DNA from: Opisthorchis felineus
Taxonomy: Eukaryota > Platyhelminthes > Trematoda > Opisthorchiida > Opisthorchiidae
Direction of reading: 5' to 3'
Length of the DNA: 64,000 nt
Assembly: GCA_004794785.1 (NCBI GenBank)
Contig: SJOL01007541.1
Location: 114,292-178,291 of the forward strand
Both the position numbers and the translations under genes were made by a program. Below, in pieces: positions 9,401-12,400 of the stretch. Position 1 is the stretch's first letter; every line of letters begins with the position of its first letter. The notes beneath the pieces were generated by a model. That model was not told the origin of the DNA. It did no database searches and was given only the letters and a program-made list of their open reading frames with translations.

Positions 9401-12400
9401 TGTAGTTGACTTATCATGGAAACACCAGTGTCATGCAAACTGCAGGCTGCTCGCACAGATTGTACCAACTGCCCCCAAGCGTATTGCTTTTACCCTAGAG
9501 GTGAGACACCCTACGCGTAAAAGTTCTTGTGTGTATGTGAAAATTTTTGTCCGATGTTTTCCATCTATTTCAAGCTATACCCGTAATTGTAGTTATCCAA
9601 TGCATTACCCAATACCTCTTGGTACCGTCGTTTCGATCTTGTAAGGTTTCTGAATCCTGTGGCTGTTCTTTTATAGTAGTGGTCCTTTGTCACGCACTTC
9701 ACATGACAGCCATTGGGGCCGGTTGCCCTCATTTCTGTACATTTTCGCGTTTCTAAACAATCTAATTCTTTCAGTTGTCCTCCACTTAGTGTGGAGCCGG
9801 TGTGCCGGGTATTCAGAGTTCGACTCTAGTATTGGGTGTTAGCCGACATTGATCCCTTGTCAATCGCCTGGTTAGTGATGGCCAATGTGATGTCTAGCGA
9901 CCTAAACCCCAAGAGGCACACCATTCCACAAGCATTGACAGCTACGGTAGATGGGTTGCATTACCTGTTCAAAACAAATGTTTCCAGCCAAACCGAAATG
10001 CTTTGGACCTGAAACTGTCTTAGTTTTATGCGTAATGCACTACTCATAAGGTTACTGAAAATTCTTCGACAGCCCACGACCGGTTTCGCCCTTCTTGGGG
10101 CTCATCAGGTAGGCGCAGTCCCCGAGTTTCCGTCAACCTTATGTTCTACTTGGAACCAAATTGCACGAAATTAGCGAAACACACTCATTTGCAAACAAAT
10201 TTGGTTTTGCGAGAGACTCACCTGGAACCCAGCTGAATCGTGGGCTGTCGAAGAATTTTCAGCAAACTTATGGGTAGTGCATTACGTATATACATGTATC
10301 GCGATGTGTCGAATATCGCACCAACTGAAACATGAGACGGCCTGGTGCAGCACATTCAGTTGCCTGGAAACATCACAAACGAGAGATCCAGCTTGGTTCC
10401 AGGTGAGTCTCTCGCAAAACGAAATTTGTTTGCAAATGAGTGTATTTTGCTGTCTCAGTTTTATTTCGGAATCCACTGGCGAAGCAGTCGTAAGAAAAGC
10501 GCAACGTACGAGTCATTCAACGCTTAACCAAGATATATTTGGAGTTTCCGGAAGTTGATTAATAATTACATTTTGCCGATTGCGAAACACCATGCATGTA
10601 ACGCGAGACCGGGACTCGACGCTACTTTGTCGCGTGTCCATCGAATTCGACATATGTGTTTTCGCCAGAATCTTTCCACAGTGAAGTGATTGGCACGTTT
10701 GGTCAAGTTCTCTGGGTATTATAGCTTTTTTAGGCGATTTTATTGCATTCTGATTCGCCTCATTGCCAGTTTCTGTAAAGTTGACGAACACAATAACTGG
10801 TCACATTTGCATAATCCTTGTACTGACCCTACTGAGGATAACTTCGCCGAACGGGAAGAAGGGTATTGCAGAAAGCTTTCGTGCTATAGCACGACCTGCA
10901 TTCCAGGATAGAACCTACGTACTCTTCACTGTTCATGGCTGAACACACTGAAAGACATGTTGGCAAAGCCGTGCCCGTGGCATCGATTGTCTGACTAAGG
11001 GCTGGGGATGTAGGTACCTCGGATGTTTGGTGGGTCGGTTCTTTTCTTTTTCCCATTCAAATAAAGTAAAATAATCATGCAGCAGTAAGACACCGGTGTC
11101 CTCCGCAGGTGTTACTGTTAATGCTGATGGCGATTACTGAGTCCACATTGCTTCTCGAGAGCACTTTCGTCCAAGGTGGACATGTGTCATACTTCCGTAG
11201 AAAACAAGCGAAGACTGTCCGAAATGCGGGCAGTCAAATTCGTTTGTATTTCCTATCTTATGTCTACTCCCTTGACATATGGAAATTGGGTCGCCGTCCT
11301 TTTATTGTTGCGACACAAATTTGAGCCGTCCGATAGGCAGTCTCGGTTTTTCTGTGGACTTTCTGTTTTTTTATTTGATCCACTGCTGTTTGTGACTCAT
11401 TCCATGTAGTAAGACCCTCCAAATTAATTTTCACTGCATCTTGGGACATTTGGTTGTGTGACACGAAAAAGTGGCTCTTAACCCAATGTTCAAGCAGGTT
11501 TTCATCTGCCGTTTATGTCCAAGCTGAACTAACTCCGTAGTTAACTCCCCTCTTCAGGCGACCAACCATCCATCATTTCAATCAAATTACTAGATATGTG
11601 CTTTCCCGTTTCTCAGTTGGAGCACCTGGATTTTCTGAAATGAGCCAGTGGAACATCCTGAACTGCGGTCGCAGGCGTATCCTGTGTTCTGAAAGCAGTT
11701 CCCTTCCTTTTACACATTTGCTTTTGCTTCGGTTGCGCTATCGGAGTCGTAAGTATCTTGAGTCAACATATGCAGTTCGAAAGGACTCACACTACACTGA
11801 ACAGACTCTGGGACACCCTAACTTGAAAAAGGCGAAGAGAATTCCAGGGCATGTTACGTTGTTGCCTGAGAAATCATTTTTCACCCTTGTTCAAATTCAT
11901 CTAAGTTGTATGGCATTTTCAAAGTAGTGCGCGGACTACGAATGTTGTGGTGCTGTCTTACGCAGAAAGCGTTCGAAATCAGTTGATGTTGAACCGCCAG
12001 CACTCTGACCAAACTGTCCACTTTCTTGGTCTGTTGAATGTCCACTTGACGAATTTTCCCTATCATTCATATTGAGTTCTCCAGTCTTTAGGCATCTGCA
12101 TGTCGCACATTTGCATACTGTTTGTTTCTATGATTGTTGCCTATCATTGTGGAAGACAGTATGCTGTTCACTTCTGATTTGTAGTTAACCTGTTTCCGGT
12201 TTTTTGCATGCATCCAGTATAAAAAACCGTCTGTGAAAGTTCACCGGTTGTCACGTAGCTATTCCGTAACCGGTTGACATAAGCCCATTTATTTGTGCCC
12301 ATAGTGTCGCTAAAATCACCCATAGTCTTAAACATTTTTGTTTTATCGTTTCCATTCCACTCAGTTGTGGGTTGGTATGCCGGCGTGGTATGTAGCCGCA

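Follow-up and report, generated by a model that had tools for sequence, protein, structure and literature searches.

The question raised by this locus is how a hammerhead ribozyme came to lie within an intron of a liprin-alpha gene in the fluke Opisthorchis felineus. The window, by which is meant the whole stretch of 64,000 nucleotides that was analysed (contig SJOL01007541.1), contains a feature that is best read as an element of the retrozyme type. The feature is a single copy of a tandem element that is about 300 nt long, non-coding and equipped with a hammerhead, and its insertion is probably the work of a Penelope-type enzyme that copies the element RNA from two fixed sites, A for one strand of the opened target and B for the other. 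The mobilisation of retrozymes and the role of the hammerhead in Penelope-like elements (PLEs) are treated as open questions in the available sections of three papers (PMC7229834, PMC7761336, PMC11167929), and a genome with thousands of near-identical ribozyme sites makes both readable from genome sequence.

The catalytic core can be read on the minus strand as CTGATGA (10108-10102), GAA (10087-10085), ACCGGT (10084-10079) and a GTC ending at 10078, with the predicted cut between 10078 and 10077. CUGAUGA, GAA and the cleavable triplet stand between three helices of which helix I is open, as in type I hammerheads; helix II is GCCC/GGGC, and helix I consists of 6+3 pairs flanking an internal loop. 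An earlier note on this DNA had described these bases and helices, and they were found where it had placed them, on the minus strand within 10123-10059. The covariance-model check that it proposed yielded an end-to-end match to Rfam family HH9 in the 1,001 bases searched (Table), which at 36 bits is under the gathering score of 52 for that family; in the window as a whole, no Rfam family reached its gathering score. The genome (630,098,494 bases in 1,848 contigs) was also searched for other copies that keep the core, using a 39-nt pattern with at most 3 mismatches. This search returned 4,191 + 4,282 = 8,473 sites, and the same search with the reversed 39-nt pattern as a control returned 0. The HH9 match and the genomic copies together uphold the claim of a type I hammerhead belonging to a small, highly repeated retroelement.

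Table. Features of the insertion and of related sequences in the window (positions are those of the window).
Feature	Position	Strand	Basis or measure
Whole insertion, two arms head to head, 420 bp	10030..10449	.	arm annotation; limits from duplicated 15-mer
Left target-site duplication CTGTCTTAGTTTTAT	10015..10029	.	flanks, by eye
Right target-site duplication CTGTCTCAGTTTTAT	10450..10464	.	flanks, by eye
A-arm with ribozyme, unit about 146 to 48, ending at site A (GTGCATTACG)	10030..10239	-	arm annotation
Inverted B-arm, from predicted cut to site B (GTGTATTTTGC)	10238..10449	+	arm annotation
Complete ribozyme domain, helix I extended	10045..10143	-	-36.3 kcal/mol, z -3.24
Outer 10-bp helix	10143-10134 paired with 10054-10045	-	fold prediction
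Hammerhead core matched by Rfam HH9	10059..10123	-	36.0 bits, E 3.2e-7
Helix III, ACCGGU, self-complementary, loopless	10079..10084	-	sequence reading
PLE fragment with hammerhead-like motif, CTGATGA at 15733	15721..15795	+	85% to L115 613-687
Second element copy, 87%	27381..27512	+	CTGATGA conserved; changed pairs in helices II and III
Decayed element remnant	1395..1453	+	75% over 59 nt

The element is a tandem repeat, the units of which are in arrays mostly 307 or 293 nt in length. Units within an array are exactly identical in three cases (all 11 internal units in L034, 4 of 4 in L094 and 2 of 2 in L054), and in two others they show up to 2 differences among three units (L085) or 8 differences between two (L082). 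The 307-nt unit has stops in six of six frames; being non-coding, it supplies no enzyme of its own, and encodes neither the reverse transcriptase nor the GIY-YIG domain that would place it among the PLEs themselves. No tRNA-like sequence was found by ARAGORN in L034. Tandem units of 307 and 293 nt, within the range of 170-400 nt, a type I hammerhead and the lack of a long reading frame are properties of retrozymes. Elements of this kind are described in the available text on non-LTR retrozymes of animals (Cervera and de la Pena 2020, PMC7229834): their tandem units are non-coding and measure about 170-400 nt, they carry type I hammerheads, they occur in thousands of copies alongside PLEs, and their target duplications, where present, exceed 4 bp. 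Platyhelminths are named there as hosts of retrozyme-like repeats. The fluke element differs from these retrozymes in its loopless helix III and its long helix I; it differs as well in the head-to-head layout reported below, which is absent from the main text of that paper (where the word “inverted” occurs 0 times), and in a two-site rule that was not seen there. The Sm-alpha and W36.2 elements of schistosomes resemble it by description, being SINE-like repeats of trematodes that carry type I hammerheads (PMC8490949, in part). No paper on hammerhead ribozymes together with Opisthorchis was found in the literature search.

The ribozyme extends well beyond the core. Taken alone, the 65-nt core has no folding advantage over shuffled sequences (z -0.44, with 57 of 200 shuffles equally good), whereas the 99-nt stretch that includes its flanking arms is equalled by only 1 of 200 shuffles, and a 107-nt version has z -2.91. 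Over 10143-10045 the core is lengthened by a stem of 5 pairs and by an outer helix of 10 pairs (CAUAAGGUUG/UAACCUUAUG), which begins at unit position 242. In two further copies, z is -2.20 for L028, in which the outer helix is partly included, and -1.46 for L094, in which the stretch stops short of the outer 3' strand. The innermost pair of the extension is G-U in the window and G-C in the 307-nt unit, and one pair becomes U-G in the 293-nt unit (both by eye), so the pairing is kept across unit types. The earlier description of the hammerhead as minimal therefore holds for helix III, which is loopless and self-complementary, but not for the ribozyme as a whole, since helix I is long and ends in the outer 10-bp helix. 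Dimer cleavage by minimal hammerheads is reportedly the subject of a 2017 paper by Lunse. The minimal hammerheads of PLEs may cleave as dimers, according to the available part of PMC7761336.

Among the five unit types compared, those of 307 and 293 nt show no difference in the 53 ribozyme columns or in the 31 columns just upstream, and differ in 63 of 283 columns elsewhere, but 39 of the 53 ribozyme columns are the search pattern, and because loci were selected by this 39-nt core the independent part of the conservation test is limited to 45 columns. For the same reason, that the catalytic core is the search pattern, its invariance from one subfamily to another was dropped as evidence for cleavage. 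In the L036 type, 3 of 53 ribozyme and 4 of 31 upstream columns depart from the 307-nt unit, and the A that closes helix III is one of the ribozyme differences. As an alternative to selection, the constancy of the ribozyme and upstream region could have been produced by exchange of modules between subfamilies. Such exchange is suggested by the composition of L045, in which the ribozyme, tail and middle are like the 293-nt type and the 5' region is different.

In the window the ribozyme occupies one of two arms that lie head to head with their 3' ends outward. The A-arm aligns at 97% to the 307-nt unit (10027-10239), the inverted B-arm begins at the predicted cut (unit 306/1, with GTGGGC, unit 1, from 10240), and 2 bases at the join are common to both. 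The duplicated flanks CTGTCTTAGTTTTAT and CTGTCTCAGTTTTAT are identical at 14 of 15 positions by eye, with an exact match of 8 bases. The partner arm, the target-site duplication, the outer 10-bp helix and the two further relatives in the window had been missed by the earlier note.

The generality of this layout was assessed on 199 annotated arms from 101 loci, one of which is the window. These loci were picked by an intact or near-intact ribozyme, a choice that favours A-ended arms and hides single A-arms starting at the cut. Among 66 pairs of adjacent arms (within 40 nt), 64 are head to head (minus then plus), one is minus-minus, one is plus-plus and none is tail to tail. The 3' ends were counted for arms of at least 85% identity, excluding ends at locus edges (n=147), and they concentrate at two sites: 73 fall at site A (unit 35-58, shortly downstream of the ribozyme), where 11.5 would be expected if they were evenly spread, and 36 fall at site B (unit 204-223), where 9.6 would be expected. 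For the 48 of the 64 head-to-head pairs which have both outer ends inside the locus, the combinations are 28 A/B, 12 A/other, 5 B/other and 3 other/other; A/A and B/B pairs do not occur, while shuffled arms give on average 8.2 and 5.6 of these. In 20,000 shuffles there was none without A/A and B/B pairs and none with 28 or more A/B pairs. Since selection by the ribozyme core favours A/A and disfavours B/B, it is the absence of A/A that is informative. The sequences of site A (ATGAGTAGTGCATTACG) and site B (ATGAGTGTATTTCG) in the 307-nt unit resemble each other by eye, a likeness that is weaker in the 293-nt unit. Other 3' ends were also observed. The array in L034 (1986-5522), which comprises 11.5 units with N on its 5' side, ends at unit 131, which is neither A nor B, and arms in L036, L037, L040, L056 and L065 have their 3' end at unit 15, 15 nt beyond the cut.

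Of the 73 testable insertions (those with flanks free of N and a best arm of at least 88%), 29 lie between target duplications of 8 bases or more, against a mean of 1.06 and a maximum of 5 in 300 shufflings of the flanks. Such duplications are found in 24 of 38 multi-arm insertions, where the whole pair is enclosed, and in 5 of 35 single-arm insertions. A head-to-head pair enclosed in this way represents one event, and head-to-head arms within one target duplication are the mark of PLE-type insertion. It is likely that this layout, with its two fixed ends, records insertion by the enzyme of another mobile element. The same observations contradict the idea that the element is satellite DNA spread by recombination without retrotransposition: tandem arrays of identical units would suit it, but the target duplications, the fixed 3' ends and the dispersal of single copies make it highly improbable.

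Insertions that show one arm only make up 35 of the 73 bounded ones, which counts against the two-site reading, but a short inverted B end accompanies 6 of 32 single A-arms, compared with 2 of 64 control windows. In the first 26 pairs, 14 arm joins overlap by 2-12 bases and 12 abut or contain up to 19 extra bases. The resemblance between the arms of one insertion barely exceeds that between arms of separate insertions (20/30), which argues only weakly for the copying of both arms from one RNA molecule. Short insertions that run from unit 231-239 to site A, and thus comprise little beyond the extended ribozyme and tail, were seen in L013, L017, L029, L032, L033, L035, L053 and L083; target duplications of 7-12 bases accompany those in L033, L035, L053 and L083.

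The available parts of two papers on PLEs and their pLTRs (PMC3846280, PMC11167929) describe repeats that lie head to head within target duplications and contain a hammerhead, copying that is initiated at internal positions of the RNA, and the cutting and extension of both target strands. Several PLEs have inverted pLTRs, an optional tail and duplications of 8-10 bp (PMC3846280), and a purified PLE enzyme cuts and extends both strands and starts within the RNA (PMC11167929). The fluke element differs from PLEs in having no reading frame, in the distance of 143-164 nt between A and B on its unit (the optional tail of PLEs, in those sources, is about 31 bp), and in exact target matches of mostly 7-14 bases, where PLEs have 8-10 bp and some copies none. 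A two-site A/B rule was not encountered in the portions consulted of the literature found on retrozymes and PLEs; the rule ties a retrozyme-type element to PLE-style insertion.

Insertion could be envisaged as follows. A PLE protein, probably acting as a dimer, would nick both strands of the target, each strand end would prime copying at a different site (A or B) of one RNA, and the two cDNAs would then be joined, often by means of a few common bases. The 5' ends of the RNA near unit 127 would be transcription starts. Because helix III is loopless, the ribozyme is predicted to cleave more readily in two paired units than in an RNA of one unit, where it should work poorly; multimers would thereby be reduced to unit length, while RNAs of one unit would be left intact to serve as templates. 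In 20 of the 48 pairs one or both ends lie outside A and B, which counts against this two-site insertion. A stricter version, in which every complete insertion would be made by a pair of reverse transcriptases reading one element RNA from two starts, one per strand, with A plus B obligatory, is put forward tentatively and at less than even confidence. If it is true, the obligate rule, recorded in thousands of genomic copies, would be the missing mechanism for retrozymes and for the inverted repeats of PLEs alike.

PLEs that could supply the enzyme are present in the genome. At least 89 GIY-YIG matches were found among 150 scored of 553 candidates, some in open frames of several hundred codons, so that autonomous PLEs coexist with the element, as with retrozymes elsewhere, and are candidates for mobilising it. 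At C860 two GIY-YIG matches lie 2,781 bases apart, and a stretch of 901 bases between them (L115) contains the end of a PLE frame, a CTGATGA...GAAAC motif and an open stretch beyond. This motif is hammerhead-like by eye, and gave no match in Rfam; comparison of sites A and B with the one PLE junction read, that of L115, revealed no clear common signal. The related fragment in the window sits directly after a 599-base run of N, and Rfam found no hammerhead at 15721-15795. The PLE fragments in the window, L027 and L047 share one end base on L115, and the fragment in L047 has a head-to-head partner which ends 8 bases short of it. An element beside a PLE fragment in L111 was considered as a PLE repeat and rejected, being judged an old independent copy. 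A PLE protein fragment from this genome has 12 relatives, 9 of them from Opisthorchis viverrini or Clonorchis sinensis, as are all of the best four (71-82% identity), which indirectly bears out the fluke lineage proposed earlier.

The 5' ends of the arms bear on the nature of the template. The main cluster, at unit 119-135 (37 of 168, 9.3 expected), most probably marks the point where linear transcripts begin; a weaker one at unit 228-239 (15 against 6.6 expected) precedes the outer ribozyme helix by a few bases. L101, for example, starts at unit 127 and has a 7-base target duplication by eye. The B-arm of the window had raised the suspicion of a further accumulation at the cut, which was rejected: 2 of 168 ends lie within 3 nt of it (3.3 expected), and a 17-nt span there holds 2 against 9.3 expected. 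Neither count is taken as a test, because the loci were selected by a core spanning the cut. The 23-mer that follows the cut offers a less biased check: it has 2,545 genomic sites, while the same 23-mer with the 7 preceding bases has 1,893. The first 100 of the 2,545 sites were taken, and all 26 that were by eye absent from the longer-pattern list had their flanks inspected. Of these 100 copies, 12 of which are units of one array, 97 cross the cut, 2 break at or within 3 nt of it (L119, L140) and 1 has an internal deletion ending there (L132). Cut RNA has therefore either been rarely the template, or been re-joined first. A rare use of cut RNA would agree with the ribozyme mutants of an Anolis PLE that still insert in vitro (PMC11167929, part of the text), and the small minority of arms that begin at the cut, together with the window B-arm, would fit occasional cut templates. 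The share of such arms is a measure of how often cut RNA was copied and, if the obligate A-plus-B rule is true, they would be fossils of self-cleavage in the living animal.

Re-joining before copying belongs to the classical retrozyme cycle, in which the ribozyme cuts multimers, the monomers are circularised, and the circles serve as templates from which arrays arise by round-and-round copying. This is a reasonable possibility, if a somewhat doubtful one. A re-joined circle would be read across the cut, as 97 of 100 copies are; it would account for the exact identity of units in L034, L094 and L054 and for the 13 of 48 A-arms that span about one lap (0.90-1.07 units), and animal precedents are given in the available text of PMC7229834. 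The 5' ends at unit 119-135, however, point to linear RNAs starting there, the units of L082 and L085 are not identical, and arrays could stem from tandem transcripts or unequal exchange. Starts at 119-135 with possible blocks at A or B on a linear tandem RNA explain as much.

An alternative role for the ribozyme is that its fold is kept as a platform on which the reverse transcriptase binds and starts, self-cleavage being of little weight; this too is possible, at rather less than an even prospect. Site A starts about 14 nt past the end of helix I, nearly all of the 100 copies checked cross the cut, insertion in vitro is unaffected in the Anolis mutants (PMC11167929, in its available part), and the constancy of a core that was itself the search pattern is no argument for cleavage. 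Against this stand a few arms with their start at the cut, namely those of L119 and L140 and the B-arm of the window. The 31 upstream bases, as constant as the core, are compatible with cleavage or with a platform.

The open reading frames on either side of the window copy match liprin-alpha-2/3 chains (8720-9058, E 3.3e-9; 12332-12661, E 1.7e-32). The copy is therefore intronic and antisense to liprin, in accordance with both the location and the strand given by the earlier note. A domesticated ribozyme that regulates liprin-alpha is scarcely credible, in spite of its place in the intron, since the ribozyme lies on the opposite strand, so that the liprin pre-mRNA carries its complement, and since other copies number in the thousands. 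Elsewhere in the window, an open frame on the plus strand (14711-15119) resembles by eye part of a LINE-type reverse transcriptase, and is interrupted by the run of N at 15120-15718.
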